From Cupriavidus oxalaticus (lineage in GTDB: Bacteria > Pseudomonadota > Gammaproteobacteria > Burkholderiales > Burkholderiaceae): 64,000 nucleotides of DNA. The translations under genes and the position numbers were made by a program. This document shows, piece by piece, positions 30,659 to 50,623 of this stretch (the first letter of the stretch is position 1; each line of letters opens with the position of its first letter). The notes beneath the pieces were generated by a model, which saw nothing but the letters and a program-made list of their open reading frames with translations, was not told the origin of the DNA and did no database searches. Location of the stretch: the NCBI RefSeq assembly GCF_004768545.1, contig NZ_CP038634.1, positions 1,302,001-1,366,000 on the forward strand, in the 5' to 3' direction.

Positions 30659-30675
30659 GCGTACCCGTTTCTGCG
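30659..30675 (-). repeat. dispersed iteron-like site 1
   Basis: GCGTACCCGTTTCTGCG, the reverse complement of the origin iteron, is a perfect 17/17 match. It lies in the gap between yccF and the sensor-kinase gene, about 22.5 kb from the origin array. Confidence 0.8.
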
Positions 30676-30783
30676 TGCCCGTTTCTGGCCACTGGCAATG
30701 ACTCCTGTGCATGGCTCGCGGGGCTGAATTGCGATCGCAAACCTGCAGCGGCGCGCCGCATGGCATTGCGTCGCACCTGCAAA

Positions 30784-30800
30784 GCGTACCCATTTCTGCG
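30784..30800 (-). repeat. dispersed iteron-like site 2
   Basis: GCGTACCCATTTCTGCG is a one-base variant of the iteron (16/17), in the same gap and orientation as site 1, 125 bp away. Confidence 0.8.
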
Positions 30801-30816
30801 TGACTTTGGCCGGGGC

Positions 30817-32151
30817 TCAGGCCGCTGGAAATACAACCCTGACACGCAGCCCCGGCCGCGCGTCTTCCAGCGCCACGCGCGCCCCGTGCGACTGCGCGAT
30901 CTCCGCCACGATCGCCAGGCCCAGCCCGCTGCCGCCGGTCGGCGCCTCCGGCACGCGGTAGAAGCGGTCGAACACGCGTTCGTGCTCCCCGGCCGGAATG
31001 CCGGGGCCGTTGTCGCCGACCACCAGCTCGACCGAACGCCCGTCGCTGCCGCGCGCGACCTGCACGTCGACGCGGCTGCCGGCCGGGATATAGGCCAGCG
31101 CGTTGTCCAGCAGGTTGGTCAGCAGGATGCGCAAGGCATCGGCATCGCCATGCACGATGGCAGGCGCCGCGTCGGCGTCGGCATCGCCATCCACGCCCAG
31201 GTCGATATCGCGATCCAGCGCAGCCTGGGCCAGCTCCGCCACCACGCCGGTGGCCAGCGCGCGCAGCGCGACCGGCTCGTGCGGCGGCGTGGCAGCGCCG
31301 GGCTCCTGCCGCGCCAGAGTGAGCAGCTGCGTGACGAGATGGGTCAGCCGCTCCAGCCCCTGGCGCAGCTTTGCGAGCGCCTCGTCGCGCGCAGCGCCGC
31401 TGTCGGCACGCTCGACCAGCTGGGCCTGCAGCTGCAGCGCGGCCAACGGCGTGCGCAGCGCGTGCGCGGCGTCGGCCACGAAGGCGCGCTGCGTGTCGAT
31501 GGCGTGCGAGAGCCGCGCCAGCAGCTGGTTCAGCGCGGCGCTGAGCGGCGCGATCTCGTCCGGCATCTGCCGCAGCGCCAGCGGCGCGAGCGTGGTGGCG
31601 TCGCGCGCACGCACTTCGGCAGCAATCTCGCGCAGCGGCCGCAGCCCGCGCCCCACCGCCATCCACACCAGCCAGCCCAGCAGCGGCAGCAGCAACAGCA
31701 GCGGCGCCACGGTACGCAGCGCCATGCGCGCGGCCAGCGTGCGGCGCGCGCTCATCGGCTGCGCGATCTGCACCACGGTGGGCCCGAGCTGCATGCTGTA
31801 CAGCCGCCATTCGCCCTGCTGCGTGGTCACATTGGAGAAGCCCAGCTCGGCGCGCGCGGGCAGCGCCGGGTGCGAGTGCGACAGGTACAGGCTGCGCCCG
31901 GAGCCGTCCCAGATATGGATGACGACATCCTCGTCGGCATGCGACAGGTCGCCGGGCGAGCCGATGAAGGGCGGCACCACGGGGTTGGCAAACTGGCTCG
32001 GCAGCGCCGCGGCCATCTGCTTCATCTGGTAGTCGAACAGCGCGTTCGCTTCCTGGCGCGCCTGGCCGTAAATCAGCGCGGTGGCGATGGCAATGCCGGC
32101 GAGCAGTCCCGCTGCCAGCCACCACAGCAGCGTTCGCTGGATGGAGCGCAT
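30817..32151 (-). CDS. sensor histidine kinase
   Basis: This 444-residue membrane kinase has a first transmembrane helix (about 7-27), a periplasmic sensor region (about 28-146), a second helix (about 147-167), HAMP, then the phospho-acceptor motif FVADAAHALRTPLAAL with His230. The C-terminal ATPase has N, G1 and G2 boxes (GDNGPGIP; GGSGLGLAIV). The family is TctE/QseC-like. Its start overlaps the stop of the response-regulator gene. Both lie directly behind the zwf-pgl-glk genes, so it may sense a sugar or organic acid. Confidence 0.93.
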   Translation of the reverse strand: MRSIQRTLLWWLAAGLLAGIAIATALIYGQARQEANALFDYQMKQMAAALPSQFANPVVPPFIGSPGDLSHADEDVVIHIWDGSGRSLYLSHSHPALPARAELGFSNVTTQQGEWRLYSMQLGPTVVQIAQPMSARRTLAARMALRTVAPLLLLLPLLGWLVWMAVGRGLRPLREIAAEVRARDATTLAPLALRQMPDEIAPLSAALNQLLARLSHAIDTQRAFVADAAHALRTPLAALQLQAQLVERADSGAARDEALAKLRQGLERLTHLVTQLLTLARQEPGAATPPHEPVALRALATGVVAELAQAALDRDIDLGVDGDADADAAPAIVHGDADALRILLTNLLDNALAYIPAGSRVDVQVARGSDGRSVELVVGDNGPGIPAGEHERVFDRFYRVPEAPTGGSGLGLAIVAEIAQSHGARVALEDARPGLRVRVVFPAA

Positions 32152-32846
32152 CAGCCGGGCTCTCCCTCGCCGTCCAGGCGCGGCACCACGTAGCCCACGC
32201 CGCGGATATTGCGGATCAGCGCGGTGCCGAATTTCTTGCGCAGCGCGTGGATATAGACCTCGACGGTATTGCTGCCGACCTCGTCGTCCCAGCCGTACAG
32301 GCGCTCCTGCAGCTGCGGCACCGACCAGACCTTGCCCGGCCGCGACATCAGCGCCGACAGCAGCGCGAACTCGCGCGCCGACAGCCGCACCGGCTCGCCG
32401 CGTTGCGTGACCTCGCGCGTGGACGGGTTGAGCACGATCTCGCCATAGGTCACCAGCGGCTCGGCCCGTCCCGCGGCGCGGCGCGCGAGCGCGTGCATGC
32501 GCGCGGCCAGTTCCTGCAGGTCGAAAGGCTTGACCAGGTAGTCGTCGGCGCCGGCATTGAGGCCGGCGACGCGGTCGGCGACCGCATCGCGCGCGGTGAG
32601 GATCAGCACCGGCGTTGGCACGCCGCGCGTGCGCAGCGTGCGCAGCACGTCCAGCCCCGAGCGGCGCGGCAGGCCGAGGTCGAGCAGCACCAGGTCGTAG
32701 CAGGCCTCGCCGTCCTGCGACGACGTGGCCGCGGCCAGGCCGGCGTCGCCGTCGCGTGCCCAGTCGACGGTGAAGCCCTCCTGCCGCAGCGCCTGCCTGA
32801 CGCTGTCGCCGATCATGGCGTCGTCTTCCACCAGCAGCACGCGCAT
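32151..32846 (-). CDS. OmpR-family response regulator
   Basis: This 231-residue regulator has a receiver domain with phospho-acceptor Asp56 (DLVLLDLGLP) and Lys in DDYLVKPFD, then a C-terminal winged helix (about 130-225, SREFALL-type segment and NTVEVYIHALRKKFG). It starts 2 bp after the glk stop and overlaps the kinase gene, so it sits in one transcription unit with the upstream sugar genes. Pseudomonas has a comparable arrangement, with gltR-gltS behind edd-glk. Its targets are not known. Confidence 0.94.
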   Translation of the reverse strand: MRVLLVEDDAMIGDSVRQALRQEGFTVDWARDGDAGLAAATSSQDGEACYDLVLLDLGLPRRSGLDVLRTLRTRGVPTPVLILTARDAVADRVAGLNAGADDYLVKPFDLQELAARMHALARRAAGRAEPLVTYGEIVLNPSTREVTQRGEPVRLSAREFALLSALMSRPGKVWSVPQLQERLYGWDDEVGSNTVEVYIHALRKKFGTALIRNIRGVGYVVPRLDGEGEPG

Positions 32847-32848
32847 GG

Positions 32849-33898
32849 CTAGGCGTTCCCCGCTTCGCGGTCCAGGCGCTCGGCCAGCGCGCGCGCCAAC
32901 CCCGGCAGCGCGGGGTGGCGCGCGGTGACGACATGGACCGGCACGTCTTCGAGCCAGCCGCGCATGCGGCCCTTGGCGACAAAGCGCTCGGCGAAGGTGG
33001 AGGCCTGCAGCGCCGGCACGAAGCGCGGCAGGATGCCGCCGCCCAGATAGACGCCGCCGCGGGCGCCCAGCACCAGCGCGATATCCGCCACGACCGAGCC
33101 CAGCAGCCCGAAGAACACCGTCATGGTGCGCTGGCATAGCGGGTCGTTGCGCTGGAACGCGCCGTCGGTGACCTGCTCCGGCTGCAGCGGCGCGAGCAAA
33201 AGCGTACCCGTTTCTGCGGCCAGCGCGGCATGGATCTGCGACAGCCCGGCACCCGATAAAAGCCGTTCCGCGGACACCCGGCCGAGCTGGCGATGCACCG
33301 CGCGCCACGCCACCCATTCATCGTCGGTGGCCGGCATCAGTTCCATATGGCCACCCTCGCCGGCCAGCGCCACCATCTGCCCGCCCGGAGCGGGGACCAG
33401 CCCCGACACGCCCAGCCCAGTGCCCGGCCCCACCAGCGCCAGCGGCGCGGTCGGCACCACGGTGCCGCTGCGCACCCGCGCCAGGCCGTCCGCCGGCAGG
33501 TGCGGCAAGGCCAGCGCCAGCGCGGTGAAGTCGTTCAGCGCCACCAGAGTCTGCAGGCCGAGCGCGCGGCGCATGCCCTCGATCGAGAACGACCAGTTGT
33601 GGTTGGTCAGCTTGACCTGATCGCCGGTGACCGGATTGGCCAGCCCGACCGCCGCATGGCGCGGCAAGCGCTGCCCGGTGGCCGCCAGGCCATCCAGGAA
33701 CTGGCGCATTGCGGCTTCGAGCGAGGGAAAGTCGGCGACCTTGAGCGCGGTCACCGGCCCGATCTGCATCGGCGCGGACTCGATCGCGAAGCGCACGTTG
33801 GTGCCGCCGACATCGCCGAGCAGGCGCGGGAAGGTGGCGCTGGCGCTGGCGCGGGCGGTCGCGGGAGTGGAGGCGGTGTCAGCCATGGCGTCGGTCAC
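32849..33898 (-). CDS. glk: glucokinase
   Basis: This protein of about 349 residues phosphorylates glucose to glucose 6-phosphate with ATP. The phosphate-1 motif GDVGGTNVRFA (about 28-38) and the catalytic aspartate in ALNDFTALA fit the bacterial glucokinase family. The frame opens with GTG at 33898, with an ATG at 33886 (MADTASTP) as the alternative. A perfect copy of the origin iteron lies inside the gene at 33202-33218 and is read as residues A-E-T-G-T-L, with no disruption. It follows pgl by 18 bp, in the zwf-pgl-glk unit. Confidence 0.94.
   Translation of the reverse strand: MTDAMADTASTPATARASASATFPRLLGDVGGTNVRFAIESAPMQIGPVTALKVADFPSLEAAMRQFLDGLAATGQRLPRHAAVGLANPVTGDQVKLTNHNWSFSIEGMRRALGLQTLVALNDFTALALALPHLPADGLARVRSGTVVPTAPLALVGPGTGLGVSGLVPAPGGQMVALAGEGGHMELMPATDDEWVAWRAVHRQLGRVSAERLLSGAGLSQIHAALAAETGTLLLAPLQPEQVTDGAFQRNDPLCQRTMTVFFGLLGSVVADIALVLGARGGVYLGGGILPRFVPALQASTFAERFVAKGRMRGWLEDVPVHVVTARHPALPGLARALAERLDREAGNA
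33202..33218 (-). repeat. dispersed iteron-like site 3, inside glk
   Basis: GCGTACCCGTTTCTGCG is a perfect iteron match (reverse orientation) within the glk coding sequence, the only one seen inside a gene away from the origin. Confidence 0.8.
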
Positions 33899-33916
33899 GT
33901 CCCCTTCAGTCAGAAT

Positions 33917-34597
33917 TCAGGCCTTGAACACATCGAATCCATGCCGGTGGCGCGACGCCACCAGGCTCACCGGCAGCGCCGGCGTCGGCCCCTGCAGCAC
34001 GCGTTCGAGCACCTTTGCCTTGGCTTCGCCAGTGACGGACAGGAAGGCGCGTTCGGCCGCCAGCAGCGCGGCCAGGTTCAGCGTGATCCGCGCATGCGGC
34101 GCGGTGCCCGGATGCGTCAGCAGGTAGGCCGGCTGCGGATCGCTCAGCGCGTCCTGGAGTTCGGGCGCGTCCGGGAACAGCGACGCGGTATGCCCATCCT
34201 CGCCCATGCCGAGCACCACCACGTCAGGCTGGCGGAACGCGCGATTCGCGCGCGCCACCGCCGCGGTTGGGTCGGCCACGTCCTGCGCATCGGCTACCAG
34301 CGGGATAAAGGCGGCGCTGCCCGCGGCCTCGCGCAGCAGGTGCGCGCGCACCAGCGCGGCATTGCTGTCGGGGTGGTCGGGCGGCACCACGCGTTCGTCG
34401 ACCAGCGTCACCGTCACCGCTTCCCAGCGCAGCGGACGGTAGCGCAGCCGCTCGAACATCGGCACCGGCGAGCGTCCGCCGGACACCGCCAGCACCGCCC
34501 AGCCGTTGACGCGGATGGCGAGTTCGAGCGCATTGCTGATCGAGATGGCCAGGGCCTCGGCCTGGTCCATCGGGGTGGGATGTTCAAACATGCGCAT
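33917..34597 (-). CDS. pgl: 6-phosphogluconolactonase
   Basis: This 226-residue enzyme hydrolyses 6-phosphogluconolactone to 6-phosphogluconate. It belongs to the DevB/SOL-type family: the VSGGRSPVPMFERL loop (about 40-53), TLVDERVVPPDHPDSN and the active-site GMGEDGHTASLFPD segment are all present. It sits 15 bp after zwf and 18 bp before glk in one operon that turns glucose into 6-phosphogluconate. Confidence 0.95.
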   Translation of the reverse strand: MRMFEHPTPMDQAEALAISISNALELAIRVNGWAVLAVSGGRSPVPMFERLRYRPLRWEAVTVTLVDERVVPPDHPDSNAALVRAHLLREAAGSAAFIPLVADAQDVADPTAAVARANRAFRQPDVVVLGMGEDGHTASLFPDAPELQDALSDPQPAYLLTHPGTAPHARITLNLAALLAAERAFLSVTGEAKAKVLERVLQGPTPALPVSLVASRHRHGFDVFKA

Positions 34598-34612
34598 GTG
34601 GTTCCCCCTGGT

Positions 34613-36070
34613 TCAGGCTTCTTCGTGCCACAAGCCGCCGTCGCGCGACATCAGCGCCGACGACGCGGCCGGGCCCCAGGTGCCGGCGGTGTAGGGCTTG
34701 GGCGGTACCGTGCTGGCTTCCCATGTATCGATGATGGGCTCGACCCAGCGCCACGCCTGCACCTGCTCGTCGCGGCGCACGAACAGACCCAGCCGGCCGC
34801 GGATCACGTCCAGCAGCAGCCGCTCGTAGGCGCCGGCGCGGCGCACCTTGAACGAGTTGGCGAAGTCGAGGTCGAGCGAGGTCGGCGTCAGCTCGAGCGT
34901 GTCGCCGGGCTGCTTGACCAGGCAATACAGCCGGATGCTTTCTTCGGGTTGCAGCTGGATCACCAGCCGGTTCTGCGGCGACAGCGTCAGCGGGCGCGGA
35001 AAGATCGCGTGCGGCACGTCGCGGAAGTGGATCACGATCTCGGCCACGCGTGCCTGCATGCGCTTGCCGGTGCGCAGGTAGAACGGCACGCCTTCCCAGC
35101 GCCAGTTGGCGATCTCCGCCTTGATCGCGACAAAGGTCTCGGTGCGGCTGTCCGCGGCGATGCCGGCCTCATCGGTGTAGCCCGGCACCGGCTTGCCGCC
35201 GATGGCGCCGGCGCGGTACTGGCCGCGCACGGTTTTCTCGGCGACGTCCTGCGGCGTGATCGGCTTGAGCGCCTTCAGGATCTTGATCTTCTCGTCGCGG
35301 ATGGCGTCCTCCGAAAGGCTGGCGGGCGGCTCCATCGCCACCATGCACAGCAGCTGCAGCAGGTGGTTCTGCACCATGTCGCGCAGCGCGCCGGTCTGGT
35401 CGTAGAAATCGCCGCGCGTTTCCACGCCGAGCTCTTCGGCGATGGTGATCTGCACGTCCCGGACCCACTCGCGCCGCCACAGCGGCTCGAACAGGGCATT
35501 GCCAAAGCGGATCGCCATCAGGTTCTGCACCGACTCCTTGCCGAGGTAATGGTCGATACGGTAGATCTGCTCTTCGGCGAAGTAGTTGGCTACCGCCGAA
35601 TTGATCGCCTCGTTCGAGTCGAGGTCATGGCCCAGCGGTTTTTCCAGCACGATGCGTACGTTTGGCGCCGTGCGCGTATTGAGCCCGGTGCGGGCGAGCT
35701 GCTCGCAGATCGACACGAACAGGTGCGGCGCGGTGGCGAGATAGCACACCACCACTTCCGGCCTGCGCGACAGCACCTTGTCGGCAAGCGCATCGAAATG
35801 CGCGGGCACGCGTGCGTCGGCCTGCACGTAGGTGATGCGCGCGCAGAACTTCTCCCATGACTCCGGCGGCGCATGGGCCAATGCGGGCCGCACGGTCTGC
35901 TCCAGCGACGCGAGGTAGTCGCCGGTCGACAACGGCTGGCTGCCGGTGGCGAGGATACGCGCAGCCGGATGCAGCAGGCCGGCGTGGTGCGCGTCGAACA
36001 GGGAAGGCAGCAGCTTGCGCCGCGCCAGGTCGCCGGTGCCGCCGAACAGCACCATGTCGAAATCAGGCAT
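34613..36070 (-). CDS. zwf: glucose-6-phosphate 1-dehydrogenase
   Basis: This 485-residue enzyme oxidises glucose 6-phosphate to 6-phosphogluconolactone with NAD(P). The nucleotide-binding motif GGTGDLA (10-16) and the active-site motif RIDHYLGKE (about 171-179) are intact. The open frame extends much further upstream, but that extension runs antisense to edd, and MPDFDMVLFGGTGD is the true N-terminus. It is the first gene of the zwf-pgl-glk set and is divergent from edd with a 216-bp shared gap carrying an iteron. Confidence 0.96.
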   Translation of the reverse strand: MPDFDMVLFGGTGDLARRKLLPSLFDAHHAGLLHPAARILATGSQPLSTGDYLASLEQTVRPALAHAPPESWEKFCARITYVQADARVPAHFDALADKVLSRRPEVVVCYLATAPHLFVSICEQLARTGLNTRTAPNVRIVLEKPLGHDLDSNEAINSAVANYFAEEQIYRIDHYLGKESVQNLMAIRFGNALFEPLWRREWVRDVQITIAEELGVETRGDFYDQTGALRDMVQNHLLQLLCMVAMEPPASLSEDAIRDEKIKILKALKPITPQDVAEKTVRGQYRAGAIGGKPVPGYTDEAGIAADSRTETFVAIKAEIANWRWEGVPFYLRTGKRMQARVAEIVIHFRDVPHAIFPRPLTLSPQNRLVIQLQPEESIRLYCLVKQPGDTLELTPTSLDLDFANSFKVRRAGAYERLLLDVIRGRLGLFVRRDEQVQAWRWVEPIIDTWEASTVPPKPYTAGTWGPAASSALMSRDGGLWHEEA

Positions 36071-36183
36071 GCTCACCCTGTGCTCCTTGAGGATTCGGGA
36101 GGATTCGAGTTGTGGCGGCCATCGCGCGCTGGCGGGCCGTGTTGCGGCAAGTTTACGTGAGTCGCTACGGCTTGGCGAGGCAA

Positions 36184-36200
36184 GCGTACCCATTTCTGCG
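36184..36200 (-). repeat. dispersed iteron-like site 4
   Basis: GCGTACCCATTTCTGCG (16/17) lies in the divergent zwf/edd promoter region, where a bound protein could affect both genes. Confidence 0.8.
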
Positions 36201-36286
36201 TGGCGCGCCCGGGCCGCGGGCGGGCCTCCGGCGTGCAGCGCCCGGCAAAGTGCGCTAGGCTGAAAGCTCCCCCGCAGGAGAACCCC

Positions 36287-38116
36287 ATGCCACGTCATCC
36301 AGTGCTCGAGCGGGTCACCGCCCGCATCGTCTCCCGCAGTGCCGCCACCCGCCAGGCGTACCTGGACCGCACCCGCGCCATGGCCGGGCAGAAAGTGGAA
36401 CGCGCCCAGCTCTCCTGTACCAACCTGGCCCACGCGGTGGCCGCGATGCCTGACGAAGCCAAGATCCGGCTGAAGGCCGACGAGCGGCCCAACCTGGCGA
36501 TCGTCTCCGCCTACAACGACATGCTGTCGGCGCACCAGCCGCTGGCGGCCTATCCCCAATGGATCAAGGAAGCCGCGCTGGAGTCCGGCGGCACCGCGCA
36601 GTTCGCGGGCGGCACGCCGGCGATGTGCGATGGCGTGACGCAGGGCCAGGACGGCATGGACCTGTCGCTGTTCTCGCGCGACGTGATCGCGCTGGCTTCG
36701 GCCGTGGCGCTGTCGCACCAGATGTTCGATGCCGCGCTGTACCTGGGCGTGTGCGACAAGATCGTGCCCGGCCTGGTGATGGGCGCGCTGTCGTTCGGCC
36801 ACCTGCCCGCGGTGTTCGTGCCGGGCGGGCCGATGACCACCGGTATCAGCAACGACGAGAAGGCGCGCACGCGCCAGCTCTATGCCGAAGGCAAGATCGG
36901 GCGTGAGGCGCTGCTCGAAGCCGAGACCCGCTCCTATCACGGCCCCGGCACCTGCACCTTCTACGGCACCGCCAATTCCAACCAGATGCTGATGGAAATG
37001 ATGGGGCTGCACCTGCCGGGCACCGCCTTCGTCAACCCCGGCACGCCTCTGCGCGAGGCGCTCACGCGCGAGTCCGCGCGCCAGGCGCTCAAGCTGGTGC
37101 ATGGCGGCGAGCGCTACACGCCGGTGGCCGAGGTGCTGGACGAACGCGCCTTCGTCAACGGCATCGTCGGGCTGCTGGCCACCGGCGGCTCGACCAACCA
37201 CACGCTGCACCTGATTGCGATGGCGCGCGTGGGCGGCATCGTGCTGGGGTGGGACGACTTTGACGAGCTGTCCGCGGTGGTGCCGCTGCTGGCGCGCGTG
37301 TACCCCAACGGCAAGGCGGACGTAAACCAGTTCCAGGCGGCCGGCGGGCTGCCGGTGGTGATCCGCGGGCTGCTGTCGCTGGGACTGCTGCATGACGACG
37401 TGACCACCATCTTCGGCCGCGGGCTGGAGGACTATACGCGCGAGCCAGTGCTGCGCGACGGCAAGCTGGGCTGGATCGACGGCCCGGCGGCGCCGCTCGA
37501 TGACAGCATCGTGCGCAGCGCCGACAAGCCGTTCTTGCCGGACGGCGGCATCAAGGTGCTGGACGGCAAGCTGGGCCGCGCGGTGATCAAGACCTCGGCG
37601 GTCAAATTGGAGCACCAGGTCGTTCAGGCGCCGGCGATCGTGTTCGAGCGTCAGGACGACCTGCTGCACGCATTCAAGCGCGGCGAGCTGGAGCGCGACT
37701 TTGTCGCGGTACTGCCGTGGCAGGGCCCGGCCGCATGCGGCATGCCCGAGCTGCACAAGCTGACGCCGACGCTGACGGTGCTGCAGGATCGCGGCTTCCA
37801 TGTCGCGCTGGTCACCGACGGGCGCATGTCGGGCGCATCCGGCAAGGTGCCGGCGGCGATCCATGTCTGTCCCGAGGCGTTGCTCGGCGGCACGATCGCG
37901 CGCGTGCGCACCGGCGACATGATGCGCGTGGATGCGCCCGCGGGCGTGCTTGACGTGCTGGTGCCGGAAGACGAATGGCGCGCGCGCGAGGCCGCCCATC
38001 CGGACCTCAGTGCCAACCGGCACGGCGTCGGCCGCGACCTGTTCGCGGCCTTCCGCAGCAATGTGAGCACGGCCGAAAGCGGCGCCTGCACGCTGTTTGC
38101 CAACGAGGGCAAGTAG
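36287..38116 (+). CDS. edd: phosphogluconate dehydratase
   Basis: This 609-residue Edd/IlvD-family iron-sulfur dehydratase turns 6-phosphogluconate into 2-keto-3-deoxy-6-phosphogluconate (KDPG), the committed Entner-Doudoroff step. Family cysteines are visible in [14 protein letters not shown] and [15 protein letters not shown], and the [15 protein letters not shown] segment is typical. The ATG at 36287 has an AGGAGAAC ribosome site. It diverges from zwf-pgl-glk. KDPG aldolase (eda) is not in this window and must lie elsewhere for the pathway to be complete. Confidence 0.96.
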
Positions 38117-38384
38117 CGCACGTTCGGCGGTATTCGGCGGCAGCGTCTGCGTACCCGTTTCTGCGTGCTGTCACCGGGAATGCGGCGCCTCGCCGATAAC
38201 CGGCGGACTCGCAAATTTTTATGTAATTAGTGAATATTGATCGCGCGATGTCAGACGATCACAGACAAAGACATGGCGCGCCACACCGAAAGGGCATAAC
38301 CGGGCGCCAATTGGTTTCCCGCACAATCCGCCAGCAGTGCGTACCCCGTCTCCCCAGCCCTTGCCCGGCAAGGCTGGCGGCGAG
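38117..38384. other. intergenic gap between edd and the AraC gene
   Basis: This 268-bp convergent gap carries one iteron copy and an AT-rich patch (about 38214-38235). No terminator with a clear T-run was found. Confidence 0.4.
38149..38165 (-). repeat. dispersed iteron-like site 5
   Basis: GCGTACCCGTTTCTGCG is a perfect match, just after the edd stop. Confidence 0.8.
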
Positions 38385-39275: not shown

Positions 39276-39329
39276 GTGACGGGGGCTGACAGGAGCTGGC
39301 GGGGCGACGTCGGCGGGGCGCCCCGGGGC

Positions 39330-39349: not shown

Positions 39350-39441
39350 GGTCCGGAAAGCCGCCGCACAAAGCTGGACTATACCGTCAGCCGGGCGGTG
39401 GCTGCTCATGCGGCAGCCAGCCAAGGACTAAGCAGGAGCTA

Positions 39442-39458
39442 CGCAGAAACGGGTACGC
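39442..39458 (+). repeat. dispersed iteron-like site 6
   Basis: CGCAGAAACGGGTACGC is a perfect match between the AraC gene start and the MFS gene stop. It is the first dispersed copy in forward orientation. Confidence 0.8.
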
Positions 39459-41090: not shown

Positions 41091-43250
41091 TTGCAGCCCG
41101 CTTTCCGTCCCACCGCCGGTGCCATCGGCGCCGCCCTGTTGTTCGCCCTCCCCGTCCATGCCCAGAACGCAGCCACGGCTCCCGCAGCCGGCAGCGCCAA
41201 CGCGGAAACCACCCTCAATGCCGTCACCGTGGTCGGCAACTGGCTCGACAACGCCGATGAAGCCAAGGTGCTGGAGCACCCCGGCGCCCGCACCATCGTC
41301 GACCGCGTGACTTTCCAGGAAGCCGGCGCCAACAACGTGCGCGAAGTGCTGCGCCGCGTCCCGGGCGTGCAGGTGCAGGAGAACAACGGCACCGGCGGCA
41401 GCGATGTGTCGCTGAACGTGGGCGTGCGCGGCCTGACTGCGCGCCTGTCGCCGCGCTCGACCATCCTGATGGACGGCGTGCCGCTGGCGGTGGCGCCCTA
41501 TGGCCAGCCGCAGCTGTCGATGGCGCCGCTGTCGCTGGGCAACCTGGAAAGCATCGACGTGGTGCGCGGCGCCGGTTCGGTGCGCTACGGCCCGCAGAAC
41601 GTGGGCGGCATCATCAACTTCGCGACGCGGTCGATCCCGCAGACCTTCGCGGCCGACGCCTCGGTCTCGACCGACATCTACAGCCACGGCGGCAACGTCA
41701 AGACCAACCCGACCGCGTTCATCGGCGGCACCAACGACAACGGGCTGGGCGGCGCGCTGCTGTATTCGGGCATCCACGGCAACGGCTATCGCGAGAGCAA
41801 CGACCACGCCAATATCGACGACCTGCTGCTCAAGGGCAACTACCGGATCTCGAAGACCGACGAACTGAGCGCTGCCTTCCACTACTACGAGGGCAGGGCC
41901 GGCATGCCCGGCGGCCTGACCCCGGCGCAGTACGCGGCCGACCCGTTCCAGTCGGTGCGGCCCTATGACAATTTCGACGGCCGCCGCAACGACTTCAGCC
42001 TGAAGTACAGCCATAACGACAACAACCGCAAGTTCGAGGTGCTGACGTACTACACCGACAGCTTCCGCGGCAGCAATATCGAGCAGCAAGGCACGGGCGC
42101 ACAGGCCAACCGGCGGCGCCTGACCTCGGCGCCGCGCAACTACCATACGTTCGCGATCGAGCCGCGCTACTCGCAGCTGTTCCGCGGCGAGAACATGAGC
42201 CATGAGGTCAGCGTCGGCTACCGCTTCCTGCGCGAAGCCAGCGACGAGAAGGCCTCGCGCACGGTGTTCTACACGCCGGGCACCATCGATCCGACCACGC
42301 TGCCGTCGCCGGTGTACCAGTCGCGCACGGGCGGCACCACCGCCAACGCGGTCTATATCGACGACACCATCAACGTCGGCAGCTGGACCATCACGCCGGG
42401 CCTGCGCTACGAATTCATACGGTCGTACGTGACCGACAACTTCACCGGCGCGCGCAACGATGTCTCGTCCAACGAGCCGCTGCCCTCGCTGGCGGTGATG
42501 TACCACGTCAGCGACCAGTGGAAGCTGTTCGCCAATGCCGGCGTCTCGTTCGGGCCGCTGCAGTACTTCCAGATCGCGCAGACCACCAACGGCCTGACGC
42601 CGGAGAAGGCGAAGACGTACGAAATCGGCACGCACTTCAACAGCAACGGCTGGGGCGGCGAGCTGACGCTGTTCAATATCGACTTCGACGACGAGCTGCA
42701 GCTGCGCGGCGGCACCGGCGGCGCGCCGGACGCGTGGACCAACCTCGGCGCCACCACGCACCGCGGCGTGGAATCATCGCTGCGCTATGACTTCGGCGCG
42801 CTCGACAAGTCGCTGGCCGGCCTGTCGGCGTATGCGACCTACACCTTCACCGAAGCCACCTACAACCAGGGCAACTTCGCCGGGCGCGACCTGCCGTTCT
42901 ATTCGCGCCATGTGGCCACCGTGGGCATGCGCTATGCGCGCAACCGCTGGGCGTTCAATATCGACGGCTACGCGCAGTCGAAGCAGCATTCGCCGGGCGA
43001 CCCGAGCACGTCGACCACGTACCAGACCGCGGAGAGCGCCAATGGCGCGCTGGGCGACATCCCTGGCTATGCACTGCTGAACATGCGGCTGGGCTACGAC
43101 TTCGGCAAGTCGGCGCAGAACCTGAAGGTGGCGGTGGGGGTGAAGAACCTGCTAGACAAGCGCTATTTCACGCGCTCGACGGACAACAATGCGGGCAAGT
43201 ATGTGGGGATGCCGCGGACTTTCTATATCCAGGCGTCGCTGGCGTATTAA
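41091..43250 (+). CDS. TonB-dependent siderophore receptor, FecA-like
   Basis: This outer-membrane receptor of about 719 residues has a short signal sequence (about 1-24, ending PVHAQ), a plug domain (about 55-170: VREVLRRVPGVQVQENN, VRGLTARLSPRSTILMDGVP) and a 22-strand barrel ending in the aromatic-terminated QASLAY. The plug wording resembles FecA/FcuA-type ferric-siderophore receptors. The track start is a TTG at 41091 and no in-frame ATG gives a better signal peptide, so the start is uncertain. There is no N-terminal signalling extension, so control by an extracytoplasmic sigma factor is unlikely. Confidence 0.9.
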   Translation: MQPAFRPTAGAIGAALLFALPVHAQNAATAPAAGSANAETTLNAVTVVGNWLDNADEAKVLEHPGARTIVDRVTFQEAGANNVREVLRRVPGVQVQENNGTGGSDVSLNVGVRGLTARLSPRSTILMDGVPLAVAPYGQPQLSMAPLSLGNLESIDVVRGAGSVRYGPQNVGGIINFATRSIPQTFAADASVSTDIYSHGGNVKTNPTAFIGGTNDNGLGGALLYSGIHGNGYRESNDHANIDDLLLKGNYRISKTDELSAAFHYYEGRAGMPGGLTPAQYAADPFQSVRPYDNFDGRRNDFSLKYSHNDNNRKFEVLTYYTDSFRGSNIEQQGTGAQANRRRLTSAPRNYHTFAIEPRYSQLFRGENMSHEVSVGYRFLREASDEKASRTVFYTPGTIDPTTLPSPVYQSRTGGTTANAVYIDDTINVGSWTITPGLRYEFIRSYVTDNFTGARNDVSSNEPLPSLAVMYHVSDQWKLFANAGVSFGPLQYFQIAQTTNGLTPEKAKTYEIGTHFNSNGWGGELTLFNIDFDDELQLRGGTGGAPDAWTNLGATTHRGVESSLRYDFGALDKSLAGLSAYATYTFTEATYNQGNFAGRDLPFYSRHVATVGMRYARNRWAFNIDGYAQSKQHSPGDPSTSTTYQTAESANGALGDIPGYALLNMRLGYDFGKSAQNLKVAVGVKNLLDKRYFTRSTDNNAGKYVGMPRTFYIQASLAY

Positions 43251-43273
43251 GCTGGCGCAAGTAAGGCGGCGTG

Positions 43274-43325
43274 TTTGCTCCCCTCTCCCCCGGCCCCTCT
43301 CCCGCAAGCGGAAGAGGGGAGCAAA
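43274..43325. repeat. REP-like hairpin element
   Basis: Thirteen-base arms TTTGCTCCCCTCT (43274-43286) and AGAGGGGAGCAAA (43313-43325) enclose a C-rich insert with an inner CCGCAAGCGG hairpin. Similar CCCCTCTCCCGC elements are common between genes in Cupriavidus and Xanthomonas genomes, so this is probably one of a dispersed family. Confidence 0.55.
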
Positions 43326-43332
43326 TCCCCCG

Positions 43333-43370
43333 AATGCAAAACGGCTCGCCAAGGCGAGCCGTTTTGCATT
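43333..43370. terminator. bidirectional terminator between tonB receptor and prfC
   Basis: Perfect 18-bp arms, AATGCAAAACGGCTCGCC and its complement (43333-43350, 43353-43370), have a 2-base AA spacer. The GC-rich core has AAAA/TTTT flanks in both directions, placed exactly between two convergent genes. Confidence 0.8.
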
Positions 43371-43386
43371 GTCAGCGACGGGATCG

Positions 43387-45000
<1,614 letters not shown>

Positions 45001-45124
45001 GGAATCTGGCTGGGAATAGGTAGAGGGAACAGAGGGTGCGGCATCAGCCGGCACCCGGACCGGCGCCGCCGCAGGCGGCATTGCGCCGGGCCTGCGGGAC
45101 TTACGGAAGGAATGGGGCGCTATT

Positions 45125-46252
45125 TTACCGGTTCACGGGCCAGGCCGGGGGTTTGCCTTCGCCCTTGCCATCCCCCTCCCCTCCCATGCCCGGCACGCCG
45201 CGCAGGCTGCCGAACTGAAGCGCGTACTGGCGCGTCAGCTCGGCGCCGAAGAAGAAGATCTGCGCCGAGTAGTAGATCCACAGCATCAGCGCCACCACCG
45301 AGCCCGCCGCGCCGTATGAAGAGGCCACGGCACTATTTCCCAGATAGAGGCCGATCAGCCGCTTGCCCACCGAAAACAGCAGCGCGGTTATGACGGCGCC
45401 CATGGTCACGTCGCGCCAGGCGATGCGCGCGTTGGGCAGCATCTTGAAGATCACGGCGAACAGCGCGGTCACGACCGCAAAGGAAAACGCCGTCGAGATC
45501 ACGTCTGCCACCGGGGCGAACCAGGACTGCGTCCACAGCTGGCCCCAGATGCGCTCGACCACCGCCAGCGCGGCGTTGACGATCAGCGACACCAGCAGCA
45601 TGAAGGCCAGCACCAGCACCAGGCTGAACGACAGCAGCCGCGCGCGCAGCAGCGTCTGCCAGCCGGCGGTCTTGGGCACCGGCACATGCCAGATGTCGTC
45701 GAGGCTGCTCTTGAGCTCGGCAAAGGCGCTGGTGGCGCCGACAAACAGGATGCCCATGGCGATCAGTGCGGCCATGCCGCTGCCGCCGGCGCGGTGCGTG
45801 GCGGCCAGGATCTGCTGGATCGCCGTGGCGCCCTGTTCGCCGACCAGCCCTTCGATCTGGGTGAAGATCTCGCCGCGCGCCGCCTCGGCGCCGAAGAACA
45901 GGCCGGCGATCGAGATCACCAGCACCAGGATCGGCGCCAGCGAGAACAGCATGTAGAAGGACAGCGCCGCGCCCTTGCTGGCGGCGCGGTGATCGAACCA
46001 GGAGGCCACCGCCGCGGTGACCACGCGCAGCGTGCGCCCACCGGTGTGGCGGTCCGGCAGCCAGTGAGGGCGGCGGGGCCGCGGCTGCGGGGATTCGGTG
46101 CCAGGGGACGATGCGGGACGGTGTTCGGAGTTGTCGTTCACGGCCTTGGGTTTGCCAGGTTCGGGAGCCCTGGTACGCAGGGACGGAGCCGGAACGCCTG
46201 GCGCGAGCGGCCGCGGCACGCTCCGGCAGCAAGGGTAGCTTGCGTTCATCAT
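45125..46252 (-). CDS. YihY/UPF0761 (BrkB-like) inner-membrane protein
   Basis: This protein has six predicted membrane helices in the order of the YihY family: [20 protein letters not shown] (first helix), [38 protein letters not shown] and [20 protein letters not shown] with [10 protein letters not shown] at the end. Function is unknown despite older ribonuclease or virulence names. The start is uncertain. The ATG at 46252 gives about 375 residues, with roughly 75 residues of Pro/Arg-rich N-terminal extension; a GTG at 46141 (VNDNSEHRP) with a nearby AAGG is a good alternative. Confidence 0.88.
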
Positions 46253-46364
46253 ACTGCGCATTGTGCGGCTTGCCCAAGCAGCACCCCCGGGGCGACCTGC
46301 TACAGTAAGACCAGGCACACCTGCCGGCGCATCCGTGCCAGCGCGCCGGCGCAAGGAGGCATCT

Positions 46365-46547
46365 GTGATCCGTTCCCTCTCCGCACGCCCGGTGGCCGCC
46401 ATGCTTGTGATCGGGATGCTGGGTGTTGCCGGCTGCGAGCGCAGCCAGCCCGGCCCCAAACCCATCTCAGGCACTGCCACGGCCTCGTCCTCCGCTGCCG
46501 CTCCCGCCCTGCCAGCGGCACCCGCCCCGCCGGGCCAGTCCCGCTGA
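46365..46547 (+). CDS. small lipoprotein
   Basis: This 60-residue protein starts at GTG with a clear AAGGAGG ribosome site 6 bases upstream. The signal peptide (about 1-23) ends in the lipobox L-G-V-A-G-C with lipidated Cys24. The mature part is only about 37 residues, rich in Ser, Ala and Pro. It resembles the tiny entericidin-like or unknown lipoproteins of Burkholderiales. No partner gene is evident. Confidence 0.75.
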   Translation: MIRSLSARPVAAMLVIGMLGVAGCERSQPGPKPISGTATASSSAAAPALPAAPAPPGQSR

Positions 46548-47079
46548 CGACCACGGCGGCCGCTAGCCGCTGCCGCGCCCTGCCGCGAGGGACGCCCGCT
46601 GCGTACCCGTTTCTGCGTACTGCGCCGCGCGTCGCCGCAGCGCCGGGCGGGCAGCGCGCTCGGCAATGTTCAAGGCACGGTCCTCAGGTCCCCGGAACCT
46701 TTCTTTGTCTTCCACCGTGTCCCCCGCTGTTACGCCAATGCAAGGCTGAAGTAACTCCAGTTTCAAAGATGCAACCCGGTGCAATGCGAAGAATGCGCCG
46801 CTGCCGGGGCACGCTATCCCGCACCCGGCGTGCATGTCAGGCGGCCATGCCCGCACATGCGCAGGCGCGCCCGGCGGTGGCGCTCGCCGCACGCGTTGCA
46901 ACGGCGAAACCGAATGGCCCCGTGGCGCCGCCCCGGCCGCGCACGGCACGACCGGACGAGCCGCAAACCCGCATGGGATATACCTTTGCGGCCATTGGCA
47001 CACTTGTCGCTCAGTATCCGCAGGGACGCCGTGCGCGTCCGGGCCATCAACCAGCCACTACTGCGGAGAGAGACCAGCC
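46548..47079. other. intergenic region with one iteron
   Basis: This 532-bp gap holds dispersed iteron site 7 (46601-46617) and shadow frames only. No RNA gene, terminator or promoter was convincing. Confidence 0.4.
46601..46617 (-). repeat. dispersed iteron-like site 7
   Basis: GCGTACCCGTTTCTGCG is a perfect match, 54 bp after the small lipoprotein gene. Confidence 0.8.
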
Positions 47080-47316
47080 ATGCGTCATCCGCCTTCACGC
47101 ATGACGGCGCGCCGGCGCTCATACCGGTTGGCGGGCCCCCCGCCTACGGTGACGGACCTGCTTTCGCCGCCACTGCTGCCCTACCCGCGCGCGCGGGTCG
47201 AGCCGGCACAGCTGGACACGGCCAGCGCGCCGTGCCCCGGCGGTGCGCGCCGGGCGCGGGGTCCGTCCTGCACGCGCGCAGCCGGCAGGCGCCCGGCCGG
47301 AAGGCGGCGCGCCTGA
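47080..47316 (+). CDS. doubtful small basic protein
   Basis: This possible 78-residue frame begins at an ATG with GGAGAGAGACC upstream (MRHPPSRMTARRRSYRLAGP). It is Arg/Pro-rich and ends in an RPAGRRRA tail, which is typical of random high-GC sequence. I do not recognise it. It is listed because it has a ribosome site and fills a gap before the next gene; it may not be real. Confidence 0.25.
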   Translation: MRHPPSRMTARRRSYRLAGPPPTVTDLLSPPLLPYPRARVEPAQLDTASAPCPGGARRARGPSCTRAAGRRPAGRRRA

Positions 47317-47419
47317 CCGGGAGCTGGTGCGATATTGAGTGGGCACGCGGGCCAGCGTGCCCGCGCGGATTTGTGCTCCGTCCCCCGGCGGGCACTTTTT
47401 TCCACAAGGAGGAGACGCC

Positions 47420-47827
47420 ATGAAAGCCGCAATCCCTGCCGCAGGCGTGCTGGCCGCCTTGGCGGTCTTCTCGGCCCCTGCCGTGGCAGCCAGCTATGCC
47501 TGGTTCGATCGTCCCGACGACGCCAGCGCCAACAGCCACGCGGCGGTCAGCAATGATGTGTACGTGCGTGGCTTCGGCTGGGCCTGGGGCGAACTGCATA
47601 TGCAGCAGGATACCTCGCCAGGCGCGGCCGCACCTGCGGCGCCGCAAGGCCGCCGGCAGGCGCGCGACTACCCCGACCGGCGCGACGCGCCGCCGTGGCT
47701 GCAACGGGATGACAACGGCCCGCCGCGCACGCCGCGCGGCAAGATCAGCATGAATCTCGCGGCCGCCCCGGCGGATGGGACGATTGGAGGAGGCACGGCC
47801 GGCCAGCCTCGCGTGGTTGTGCGCTGA
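47420..47827 (+). CDS. unknown secreted protein
   Basis: This 135-residue protein has a strong AAGGAGGAGA ribosome site and a signal peptide (MKAAIPAAGVLAALAVFSAP, cleavage near AVAAS, about residue 24). The mature part has a conserved-looking block (NDVYVRGFGWAWGELHMQQD) and then a Pro/Arg/Ala-rich, probably unfolded tail. I do not recognise a family. It is convergent with the sigma-54 activator gene. Confidence 0.7.
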   Translation: MKAAIPAAGVLAALAVFSAPAVAASYAWFDRPDDASANSHAAVSNDVYVRGFGWAWGELHMQQDTSPGAAAPAAPQGRRQARDYPDRRDAPPWLQRDDNGPPRTPRGKISMNLAAAPADGTIGGGTAGQPRVVVR

Positions 47828-47852
47828 CGTGCCAGCGGGCACGGGGAAAGGC

Positions 47853-47881
47853 GGAACCGGCGAGCGGACGTCGGCGGTTCC
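47853..47881. terminator. possible hairpin terminator between convergent genes
   Basis: GGAACCG (47853-47859) pairs with CGGTTCC (47875-47881), followed on the plus strand by CCTTTCC. The T-run is poor. Confidence 0.3.
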
Positions 47882-47974
47882 CCTTTCCTGTGGCGCGCTG
47901 CCCGAGGCTCGACTGTTTGCAGTTCGATAGCTGCGGACAGCGGTGACCGGCGCTTGCGCTGCGCACTTGCCAGC

Positions 47975-49342
47975 CTACTCGCCCGCGGCGGGCTGGCTCT
48001 CCACGCGGATATTGTGCTTGTGCATCAGCCGGTACAGGGTCACGCGCGACACGTTGAGTTCGCGCGCAGCCGGCACGACGTGGAAGCCATGGCTGGCCAT
48101 CACGTTGCGGATCGCCTCGCGCTCGGCCTCCTCGCGGATCGCGTCGAGGGTCTTGCGCGGCAGTTCCGCACCGCCGTGCAGCTGCAGGTCCTCGGCCGTG
48201 ATCTTGCGGTTGTCGGTCATCACGATGGCGCGGCGCACGCGGTTGATCAGCTCGCGCACGTTGCCCGGCCATGCGTACTGCATCATGGCCTGGGTCGCGC
48301 ATGCCGAGAAGCCGCGGATACGCCGGTGCGCCTCGTGCCCATGCTCGGCCAGCACGGCGTTGGCCAGCTGGAGGATGTCCTCGCCGCGCTCGCGCAGCGG
48401 CGGAATGCTCAGCGTCAGCACGCACAGCCGGTGGAACAGGTCGGAACGGAAACGTCCGTCGCCCTGCGCGGCGACCAGGTCCACGTGCGTGGCCGAGATG
48501 ATGCGCAGGTTCAACGGGATCGACTGATGCCCGCCCAGGCGCGTGATGGTGCCCTGTTGCAGGAATCGCAGCAGCGCCACCTGGCTCTCCAGCGGCAGGT
48601 CGCCGATCTCGTCGAGAAACAGCGTGCCGCCCTGCGCCTGCTCGATCCAGCCGATCTTGCGCTGGTTGGCGCCGGTGAACGCGCCCTTCTCGTAGCCGAA
48701 CAGTTCGGACTGCACCAGGTGCGAAGGGATGGCGCCGCAGTTGATGGCGATGAACGGCCCCTTGCGCCGGCTCGAGGCATCGTGAATCGCCTGCGCGGCG
48801 AGTTCCTTGCCGGTGCCGGATTCGCCGGAGATGAATACCGGCGCCTCGTTGTGCGCCACCTTGGCGAGCGAGCGGAACATGGCGCGCATGGCCGCGCACT
48901 CGCCGATCATGGTGCCGCGCGACGCCGTCTCCTGCACGCGCACGCCATGCAGCGACGCCATGCCATGCGCGTGCTTGAGCGTGTAGATCAGCTCCTGCAC
49001 CGAGAACGGCGTGCGCACGTAGTCCACGCAATAGTCGCGGATCAGCCCGCGCACGCGCTCGTCGGCAAGCATCGCGTCGCAGGTGATGGCCACCCAGGCG
49101 ACATGCAGATGCTGCAGCGCAAGTTCGAGCTGGCCAAGCTCGGCATCGCTGTATTCCGCCTGCAGGTCGATCACGCCAGCGCTGGGCGGGCTCGCGCGCA
49201 CCACGCGTTCGGCGTCACGGATCTGCTGCACGCGGCGCAGTTCCCATCCGGGGCCGAAGCTGGACGGGTCAAAACCAAAATCTTCATGACGCGACACGAC
49301 TACGATCTGCGCAGTGCGTGGCGCCTTGCACAGTCGGTCCAT
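47975..49342 (-). CDS. sigma-54 dependent activator, VpsR/BerB-like
   Basis: This 455-residue protein has a degenerate receiver-like N-terminal domain (about 10-125), a AAA+ sigma-54 interaction domain and a Fis-type C-terminal helix-turn-helix (about 405-445, PAARELNVSRVTLYRLMHKH). The AAA+ domain carries Walker A GESGTGKE 173-180, the sigma-54 contact loop GAFTGA 220-225 and Walker B LFLDEIGD 241-248. The N-terminal domain lacks the usual acidic pocket, as in the cyclic di-GMP-linked regulators VpsR and BerB; similarity to them is my inference. The start MDRLCKAPRTAQ at 49342 is preferred to a low-complexity extension to 49651. It activates promoters read by RpoN. Confidence 0.88.
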   Translation of the reverse strand: MDRLCKAPRTAQIVVVSRHEDFGFDPSSFGPGWELRRVQQIRDAERVVRASPPSAGVIDLQAEYSDAELGQLELALQHLHVAWVAITCDAMLADERVRGLIRDYCVDYVRTPFSVQELIYTLKHAHGMASLHGVRVQETASRGTMIGECAAMRAMFRSLAKVAHNEAPVFISGESGTGKELAAQAIHDASSRRKGPFIAINCGAIPSHLVQSELFGYEKGAFTGANQRKIGWIEQAQGGTLFLDEIGDLPLESQVALLRFLQQGTITRLGGHQSIPLNLRIISATHVDLVAAQGDGRFRSDLFHRLCVLTLSIPPLRERGEDILQLANAVLAEHGHEAHRRIRGFSACATQAMMQYAWPGNVRELINRVRRAIVMTDNRKITAEDLQLHGGAELPRKTLDAIREEAEREAIRNVMASHGFHVVPAARELNVSRVTLYRLMHKHNIRVESQPAAGE

Positions 49343-49461
49343 CACGATCTCCCGGACGTTTGGCTTGTTCTTGGTTCCGGCACCCGGCGCCGGGGCCTGT
49401 GGCCGTGGCGCGGACTGGCGCTGGACTGGCTGCGGTTTGGCGCCCGCAGGCAACGTCGGTA

Positions 49462-49935
49462 TCACGAGGTGGACAGACTGCGGGACGGCTCCTCGGGCGC
49501 GGCGAGATAGCCGCTGCCACCCTGGAGCTGTTCGCGGATGCGTCGGCGCACCGCTTCCTTCTCGCGCATCAACTCTACGCGCGGTGCCTCGGGGGTCTGT
49601 CCGGAGTACTGGTAGTAGAGCGACTTGTAGGTGAGCTGGCTCAGGATCCATTCCTGCAGCATGGCGCGCTGGCGCGCCAGTTCGTCCTCCAGCAGGCGAT
49701 GGCGGCGCAGCAGGTTTTCCACCGCGGCACGGGCGCTGTCGCTGAGCGCACTGTCCTCGGCCAGCAGGGCCGCCACGTCGGCAGCAGCGCCGTCGCGGCT
49801 GGCGCGGTGTGCGGGTGTTTCGCCTGCGGCTTCCCCCAGAGCAGCCCAGGCTTGGTGGATGGATCGGCTATTGGATCGGCTTATGGACTCCCTGACGGGC
49901 CCGATGGCGGGTCGCCGAATCTCTCCTGCGGTCAT
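49462..49935 (-). CDS. unknown helical protein
   Basis: I do not recognise this 157-residue protein. It starts MTAGEIRRPAIGPVRESISR. Residues about 55-110 form long charged helices with coiled-coil character (ARAAVENLLRRHRLLEDELA, then RQRAMLQEWILSQL), and a YKSLYYQYSGQTPEAPRVEL segment follows. It lies upstream of, and on the same strand as, the sigma-54 activator gene (119-bp gap) and may be cotranscribed with it. The start is uncertain. Confidence 0.6.
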   Translation of the reverse strand: MTAGEIRRPAIGPVRESISRSNSRSIHQAWAALGEAAGETPAHRASRDGAAADVAALLAEDSALSDSARAAVENLLRRHRLLEDELARQRAMLQEWILSQLTYKSLYYQYSGQTPEAPRVELMREKEAVRRRIREQLQGGSGYLAAPEEPSRSLSTS

Positions 49936-50340
49936 GATTATCCCCGTTGAACAACATCCCCCGGCACTACACGTCTGCGGATACCACTTGTCAGTCTTGG
50001 AATTATTTGTCTCTGCGTGGCGTACGTGTTTCCGCACGCTCCCTGGTCGTGGCCGTGCCGCCTTGCCTGGCGGTCTCATCCGAACTGTCCCCAGACTAGC
50101 GGACGGCGCCAACGCGCGCTCGGTGTGCTCCGGCAATCCAGCCGCATGCACCGGAGTCAAGAAGGGGCGCCTTGCCGCGCCCCTCTTTGCCACGCCTATA
50201 GTTCAGTGCATTTGGGGCGGTTTGTCCAGCCCTGAGTGGGTGACTTACACCCAATCTCATACTTTGGAATGAGCCGGCCTGCACACCGTCGATCTGGCCC
50301 GCCGGAAGCGGCTTGCGGGCTGGTTCGTGACAGATTCGCG

Positions 50341-50388
50341 ACCGAATTTCGAGCCAAATTTCGGACCGAATTTTGGACTAAATTTCGG
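50341..50388 (+). repeat. four 12-bp AT-rich tandem repeats
   Basis: The units are ACCGAATTTCGA, GCCAAATTTCGG, ACCGAATTTTGG and ACTAAATTTCGG in exact 12-bp register. An AT-rich core in a GC-rich genome, right before three iterons, resembles the AT-rich repeats of iteron origins. Confidence 0.7.
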
Positions 50389-50445
50389 ACTGGATGCGGC
50401 CCGCCTGTCGTGCCGCCGGCGCGCCGTTTCCACGCCCGCATGGTA

Positions 50446-50462
50446 CGCAGAAACGGGTACGC
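50446..50462 (+). repeat. dispersed iteron-like site 8
   Basis: CGCAGAAACGGGTACGC is a perfect match, 58 bp after the AT-rich tandem repeats. Confidence 0.8.
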
Positions 50463-50560
50463 TCTCGCACCCCGAACGGGTGATGGCAGAGCTCTCGTTA
50501 GCACGCGTGGCCAATGCGCGAGGTGGTATGGCTCGCGGCAAGGCATGTCGAAACGCAGCC

Positions 50561-50577
50561 CGCAGAAACAGGTACGC
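50561..50577 (+). repeat. dispersed iteron-like site 9
   Basis: CGCAGAAACAGGTACGC matches 16/17, in the same orientation as sites 8 and 10. Confidence 0.8.
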
Positions 50578-50606
50578 TGCGAACGCTCGTGCGGCCGCGG
50601 AAGGGC

Positions 50607-50623
50607 CGCAGAAACGGGTACGC
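50607..50623 (+). repeat. dispersed iteron-like site 10
   Basis: CGCAGAAACGGGTACGC is a perfect match, 46 bp after site 9. Confidence 0.8.

Follow-up and report, generated by a model that had tools for sequence, protein, structure and literature searches.

Copies of the iteron that makes up the replication origin of chromosome 2 (ori2) in Cupriavidus are also scattered as single sites, here called the halo, among the chromosomal genes on both sides of that origin. We analyzed a stretch of 64,000 nucleotides from Cupriavidus oxalaticus (G000:C1:1302001-1366000, hereafter the window), which lies within a 7.97-Mb genome. The window is part of Cupriavidus chromosome 2, and its closest DNA relatives are Cupriavidus records of chromosome-2 size. 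As far as genome comparison can tell, the scattered copies cluster around ori2, are held individually by selection, stand closer to the consensus than the copies of the origin array, and recur in relatives at the level of the replicon. We propose, with a probability of about 0.62, that they are extra-origin sites for the chromosome-2 initiator, Rep, forming a reservoir that would titrate or pair Rep and thereby restrain ori2.

Clustering of iteron copies around ori2

The iteron motif, the 17-mer CGCAGAAACGGGTACGC, has 33 matches in the window at up to three mismatches, against 0.35 expected from shuffles of the same sequence, so that its recurrence exceeds chance, as was originally argued. Twenty copies at this threshold (18 on the plus strand, 2 on the minus strand, 5 exact) form the ori2 array (53139..54475). 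The direct repeats adjoin rep (54475..55623, plus strand), as expected of an iteron-type origin. Rep has 382 amino acids, and RepA_C (PF04796) is the only Pfam family found in it; its sequence gave no useful match in the PDB. Its structure model has the WH1-WH2 fold of iteron-type initiators and resembles RctB domains 2-3, RepE and Pi. One inverted iteron (54459..54475, minus strand) abuts the rep start codon and is the presumed operator of Rep autorepression; all 51 named loci have an inverted copy, at up to three mismatches, in the interval from -200 to +60 relative to the matched rep start. The AT-rich stretch between array and rep (54256..54345) is, from its composition, the probable unwinding region. 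The ori2 repeats themselves are not new: the consulted portions of earlier reports describe at least 12 repeats of this sequence in C. metallidurans CH34 (PMC2864759) and 20 in C. necator NH9 (PMC6379261), and in the same portions we found no mention of copies away from the origin.

Ten off-origin copies had been noted to the left of the array, and the motif is present at all ten coordinates, seven times exactly and three times with one mismatch. Going from the origin outwards, these are a cluster of three sites starting at 50446, 50561 and 50607 (50446..50623, plus strand, -4.0 to -3.9 kb from rep), followed by 46601..46617 (minus, exact, -7.9 kb), 39442..39458 (plus, exact, -15.0 kb), 38149..38165 (minus, exact, -16.3 kb), 36184..36200 (minus, one mismatch, -18.3 kb), 33202..33218 (minus, exact, -21.3 kb), 30784..30800 (minus, one mismatch, -23.7 kb) and 30659..30675 (minus, exact, -23.8 kb). 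The strands are also as originally given: all seven far copies lie on the minus strand except 39442, and the three near copies lie on the plus strand, as does most of the array. Nine of the ten are intergenic; the exception, 33202, lies within a glucokinase gene (32849..33898, minus strand; PF02685, E 5e-99). The sites at 36184 and 38149 bracket an edd-type gene for a dihydroxy-acid or 6-phosphogluconate dehydratase (36200..38116, plus strand; PF00920, PF24877), the former before it and the latter in the convergent gap after it, and a gene for a xanthine/uracil-type permease (50738..52483, minus strand; PF00860) adjoins the -4 kb cluster. The outermost left-hand site (16933..16949, plus strand, -37.5 kb) has two mismatches, and a motif scan marks a possible weak site with three mismatches abutting the 30659 copy (30673..30689, minus strand).

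The halo had been described as one-sided. This is wrong: the window ends 9.5 kb to the right of the rep start, and further copies follow between +14 and +129 kb. At up to one mismatch, the threshold also used for the counts in ten genomes below, they lie at +14.2, +51.9, +55.5, +78.6, +83.7, +83.9, +84.0 and +129.4 kb from rep, with two-mismatch copies at +73.4 and +77.3 kb.

Across ten Cupriavidus genomes, the origin array holds 10 to 15 copies per genome and the halo, counted beyond the array and up to 160 kb from rep, another 16 to 20 (175 in total). Only 6 copies occur in the remaining 25.3 Mb of chromosome 2 and 26 in 48.8 Mb of other replicons. These genomes, in two to seven contigs, were picked for low contig number once the copy totals were known; G037, in which the record ends cut rep in two, is left out, as are G036, G014, G008 and G028. 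Replicon sizes of the relatives are rounded in the density denominators; chromosome 2 of G000 is one contig. To the left, density per kb and genome falls from 0.42 (-10 to -2.2 kb) through 0.33 (-20 to -10 kb) and 0.16 (-40 to -20 kb) to about 0 beyond. To the right it is 0.01 (0 to +10 kb, a single site across the ten genomes), 0.06 (+10 to +20 kb), 0.035 (+20 to +40 kb), 0.09 (+40 to +80 kb) and 0.03 (+80 to +160 kb). Thus the sites cluster around ori2 and are not spread evenly over the genome; near-consensus predicted initiator sites lie outside the origin and close to it, as on Vibrio chromosome 2.

Outside the array, the 15-mers repeated most often in a 264-kb stretch of G000 come from the iteron motif, with 12 copies. 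A second dispersed 15-mer, CCGCTTGCGGGAGAG, has five copies in the same 264 kb of G000 C1, at about -107.9, -74.7, -11.2, +89.9 and +145.7 kb from rep.

Conservation and placement of single copies

In a sample of 40 genomes of the genus, 39 carry 23 to 38 motif copies together with a Rep of at least 93% identity. The exception, G023, placed in the same genus, has three motif copies, only a remote Rep match and no halo. Single copies are retained as well. When genes were compared between G000 and G022, G027 and CH34, 13 of 16 halo loci had a site beside an orthologous neighbor in at least one of the three. The pair at -23.8 kb is matched only by a nearby pair; in relatives, two or more sites stand together at about this position, in some with an additional gene between them. 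On the left, the succession of strands is much the same across 14 genomes, with some members missing in G001, G020 and G022. Site orientation is mostly kept; near -16.3 kb the G027 copy is turned, to the plus strand. Two segments, each carrying a site, have changed sides of the origin. The CH34 counterpart of the 16933 site is a one-mismatch site at +116.3 kb, across the origin, with the same neighboring genes inverted and the site turned relative to them.

Alignments of single sites separate the 17-mers from their surroundings. Identity in the 17-mer and in its flanks is 98% versus 25% at -7.9 kb (46601; 14 genomes), 99% versus 26% at -15.0 kb (39442; 12 genomes) and 97% versus 29% at -18.3 kb (36184; 11 genomes); within the glucokinase gene (33202, -21.3 kb; 14 genomes) it is 97% versus 74%. 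Counterparts were picked by distance and order, and genomes lacking a clear one were left out (G001 and G022 at -15.0 kb; G001, G020 and G022 at -18.3 kb). Since the flanks at the three intergenic places are saturated with change and the 17-mers are nearly unchanged, selection must act on the 17-mers. It is doubtful in the extreme that the halo is a passive remnant of a larger ancestral origin scattered by insertions and rearrangement: the segments that crossed the origin would fit such a history, but the near-identity of 17-mers in saturated flanks requires selection.

All 49 named loci whose upstream DNA extends far enough, those of Ralstonia and of Burkholderiaceae bacterium PBA among them, have at least one copy 2.8-5.5 kb ahead of rep. 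An inverted copy near -7 kb (-6.4 to -9.3) occurs within the upstream DNA examined in 33 of the 49; the 16 loci in which it does not are 10 of Ralstonia type, that of PBA, and 5 of Cupriavidus type.

Halo sites at up to one mismatch mostly avoid genes. They are intergenic in 17 of 18 cases in G000, 12 of 15 in G022, 16 of 18 in G027 and 14 of 15 in CH34, where 11-17% of positions are intergenic; the genes are our own codon-usage calls, with uncertain starts and poor performance on megaplasmid pieces. By the same calls, the 43 site-holding gaps of these four genomes comprise 12 convergent, 13 divergent and 18 tandem ones. Convergent gaps, which make up 7.6% of gap bases, are enriched for sites; divergent gaps, at 40%, are not. 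The sites therefore do not lie preferentially upstream of genes, as those of a transcription factor regulon would.

Halo copies are closer to the consensus than array copies. In the ten genomes, 114 of 175 halo copies are exact versus 46 of 120 in the array (Fisher p 6e-6, uncorrected for shared ancestry); at up to two mismatches in four genomes, the figures are 44 of 74 versus 21 of 66, likewise uncorrected. Halo copies also favor an A before and a T after the 17-mer.

Related genera, other replicons and neighboring elements

The motif was matched in 65 of the 299 genomes searched in the family: 41 are Cupriavidus, 15 belong to one further genus and one to another, and eight have a single match. 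The two genera beyond Cupriavidus are Ralstonia and 'Burkholderiaceae bacterium PBA', with a Rep 89-93% identical in their 16 genomes (one a contig-edge fragment, at 84%). Absence of the system from relatives, which would have counted heavily against the original prediction, was thus not observed: motif, Rep and halo are all present there. Three Ralstonia genomes share the cluster near -3 kb with Cupriavidus, and the bulk of their halo falls between +3.5 and +22 kb, isolated copies standing farther out at about +71 and +165 kb (G133) and +89 and +208 kb (G168). Their intergenic share is lower (8 of 11, 11 of 14 and 10 of 12 sites). The Ralstonia halo stands mostly beside genes that have no close match in 264 kb of G000, and a role at the level of the replicon is therefore likelier than gene regulation.

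A similar arrangement exists with an unrelated iteron. The Burkholderia cenocepacia c2 iteron, taken from a table legend (PMC4948915), was searched in three plasmid-labelled records of chromosome-2 size. In each, an array is accompanied by a one-sided series within about 17 kb (4, 7 and 2 copies) and by a distal cluster some 150-210 kb away, and two of the three have a copy about 14 kb away on the other side; at up to one mismatch, no further copies were found in these records, and a reversed control gave 0. On the third megaplasmids of four Cupriavidus genomes, the replicon's own iteron has 11, 10, 12 and 14 copies, all in its own origin, and no halo was seen with exact matching of a strict pattern of 13 fixed bases. 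The Burkholderia c3 iteron is an intermediate case: two pC3-like records have arrays plus one and two outliers 11.6-12.9 kb away, and we gave up pC3 as a strict halo-free control.

Could chromosome 1 carry a timing site for chromosome 2? Three sites were found on chromosome-1-size contigs in ten genomes (in G003, G013 and G022, one of them in a called gene; none in the other seven), near the level of a reversed-pattern control, which does not support such timing. A conserved chromosome-1 site of this sequence, comparable to the Vibrio checkpoint site crtS, is not evident from a motif search with replicons assigned by size, which would miss a crtS of differing sequence. Treating all matches off chromosome 2 as one class was rejected, as a recurring coding motif explains several: L017, L068, L074, L082 and L087 lie in called genes, and L089 and L090 are assigned by likeness of their flanks. 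This coding motif, which contains the 17-mer and occurs mostly on plasmids, is a source of false positives in scans for Rep sites. The remaining matches off chromosome 2, on megaplasmids, are only partly explained.

A chromosome-2-type iteron with one mismatch occurs within the megaplasmid's own origin in G024, G029 and G007. Among 20 genomes with a Rep3-type initiator at least 77% identical, seven origins carry a copy of this kind some 525 bp ahead of rep (four at one mismatch, two at two, one at three), and in one more the copy appears, by eye, to have decayed. Thirteen of the 20 origins lack it (one of these has a three-mismatch match elsewhere), and so the site is not universal. The third-megaplasmid origins L246, L247, L250 and L254 contain the iteron in a form conserved in one clade. 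On this sequence evidence we regard a cross-replicon site as a lead, not a finding.

Beyond rep lie the partition genes parA (56308..56967, plus strand; PF13614, with the partition ATPase model NF041546 just under its cut-off) and parB (56971..57984, plus strand; TIGR00180, PF17762). Just before parA is a candidate parS, the perfect 16-bp palindrome CTTTCAGCGCTGAAAG (56282..56297), with a second candidate copy at one mismatch (57131-57146). The palindrome is kept in 51 of 51 Cupriavidus/Ralstonia-type loci. Each of four genomes has two copies at +1.8 to +2.8 kb and few matches at one or two mismatches farther away; with single one-mismatch matches at -15.9 kb (G022) and -27.4 kb (G027), parS is not a clean halo-free control. 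Two further elements adjoin the origin: a long polypyrimidine tract with CCCGCCT and TTTCCCGC repeats (52852-53094) borders the iteron array and was not found in 48 relatives by a rough pattern, and a 198-nt inverted repeat, 76% complementary (52519-52716 and 55732-55929), flanks array and rep. Four open reading frames in the window matched no family in a Pfam scan.

A possible brake on ori2 and its alternatives

Control of Rep by titration or pairing on the scale of a chromosome, as the original prediction proposed, is well supported by the sequence evidence: clustering, constraint, consensus, the inverted copy at the rep start and the layout in relatives. We infer from it Rep binding, autorepression, an order of affinities, titration or pairing, and an effect on timing. 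About 18 strong predicted Rep sites within some 150 kb of ori2 would constitute a reservoir, placed mostly where no gene is disturbed. Rep would limit its own synthesis at the inverted iteron on its start codon, and the strong outlying sites would fill before the weaker, more varied sites of the array, so that ori2 would fire only once there is more Rep than the reservoir can take up. Given their nearness to ori2, the halo sites would be duplicated soon after firing, and the reservoir with them; less Rep would then be free, and Rep-bound sites could pair with the origin (handcuffing), blocking a second firing. The halo thus looks like a built-in counter that keeps chromosome 2 copied once per cell cycle.

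Several points weigh against this proposal. Theory holds titration alone to be a weak brake where the initiator represses its own gene, so that pairing or another step would be needed. Simple titration does not predict the uneven shape of the halo, which is dense from -3 to -40 kb, empty from 0 to +10 kb and sparse out to +130 kb. Not every copy is fixed: those at +51.9 and +73.4 kb have no counterpart in G022, G027 or CH34, and those at +14.2 and -37.5 kb are turned relative to genes. Site counts from related genomes are not independent, and the Burkholderia pC3-like outliers make the contrast with non-chromid replicons a graded one. Lastly, the part consulted of a more recent Vibrio study reports only a small change in Chr2 copy number after mutation of three prominent RctB sites, all located on Chr1 (PMC11711613).

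The strongest alternative is architectural: Rep could form bridges between ori2 and sites as distant as 130 kb, and so fold or hold the ori2 domain for segregation. The wide extent of the halo, the largely conserved order and orientation on its left side and the enrichment in convergent gaps (12 of 43) would suit this role, and iteron Reps can pair sites. Since a partition system with a candidate parS pair stands beside rep, a second segregation device is not obviously needed, and the layout differs in Ralstonia. We consider this alternative possible though unlikely; titration and bridging are not mutually exclusive.

Rep acting as a transcription factor at nearby genes such as glk and edd is improbable. 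The cluster does include the edd-type and glucokinase genes, and some sites lie in divergent (13 of 43) or tandem (18 of 43) gaps, but divergent gaps are not enriched, one conserved site lies within a gene and the Ralstonia halo is kept mostly beside unrelated genes. The regulation of zwf/edd-type genes that had been suggested is disfavored on these grounds and by the convergent-gap enrichment, and from the placement of sites in gaps, by our gene calls, we rejected transcriptional regulation as the main role. Even less probable is that the copies belong to another DNA-binding protein sharing the origin motif, or to a mobile short repeat. Our inference of Rep binding leaves room for this, but motif and Rep are present or missing together in the genomes searched for both, all 51 loci have the inverted copy at the rep start, and no common flanking sequence is seen, as a mobile element would bring.

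The proposed restraint of ori2 by a reservoir of Rep sites has parallels in known systems. The control iterons of the plasmids F (incC), R6K and pPS10 lie within or beside the origin and exert negative control also by titration, whereas the Cupriavidus halo spans 150 kb of chromosomal genes. According to the section consulted of PMC11711613, these extra iterons exert their negative control by bridging, as the halo sites are proposed to do. The closest parallel is V. cholerae chromosome 2, a secondary chromosome that likewise has initiator sites close to its origin but not within it, and whose RctB (domains 2-3) is the closest in fold to the modeled Cupriavidus Rep. In the accessible parts of PMC3937223 and the review PMC6090056, extra-origin RctB sites on chromosome 2 lower the copy number of an ori2 plasmid in E. 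coli. The six Vibrio sites described there (five iterons and one 39-mer-like) occupy a stretch of 74 kb at a distance of 40 kb from ori2, and Vibrio also has the chromosome-1 checkpoint site crtS; each Cupriavidus genome counted has 16-20 sites, all of them copies of the iteron itself and conserved genus-wide, and no evident chromosome-1 counterpart. B. cenocepacia c2 likewise has an array, nearby copies and a distal cluster, the legend cited above (PMC4948915) mentioning other iteron copies and, at a distance of 140 kb, a second cluster, but its iteron sequence is unrelated and its near copies are fewer. E. coli datA and DnaA titration share the logic of origin-near initiator sites doubled soon after firing (per the part consulted of PMC3937223); they involve DnaA and oriC, and datA acts via DnaA-ATP hydrolysis, whereas Cupriavidus Rep shows RepA_C only.

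In the literature searched, which excludes most subscription papers and supplementary files, we found no published description of the halo in Cupriavidus or Ralstonia. Precedents for it are the Vibrio chromosome 2 titration sites and the B. cenocepacia table legend. The pattern is seen in at least two unrelated iteron systems (Cupriavidus/Ralstonia chromosome 2 and Burkholderia c2) and more weakly in Vibrio chromosome 2. We tentatively suggest that a halo could be a feature that arises repeatedly, and characteristically, when plasmids turn into chromosomes, and that the chromosome-2 initiator may also control a third replicon, giving a hierarchy of replicons.

What is known in detail about how plasmid-derived secondary chromosomes acquired once-per-cycle replication comes mainly from Vibrio. 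Cupriavidus is a tractable genus with a large, countable and deeply conserved set of presumed initiator sites, and it brings built-in comparisons: a same-genus genome without the initiator (G023), third megaplasmids without a halo, and a sister genus with the halo elsewhere. The halo gives exact sites to remove, with a predicted effect on chromosome-2 copy number and timing. For the engineering of C. necator, insertions or deletions near ori2 may upset replication control.

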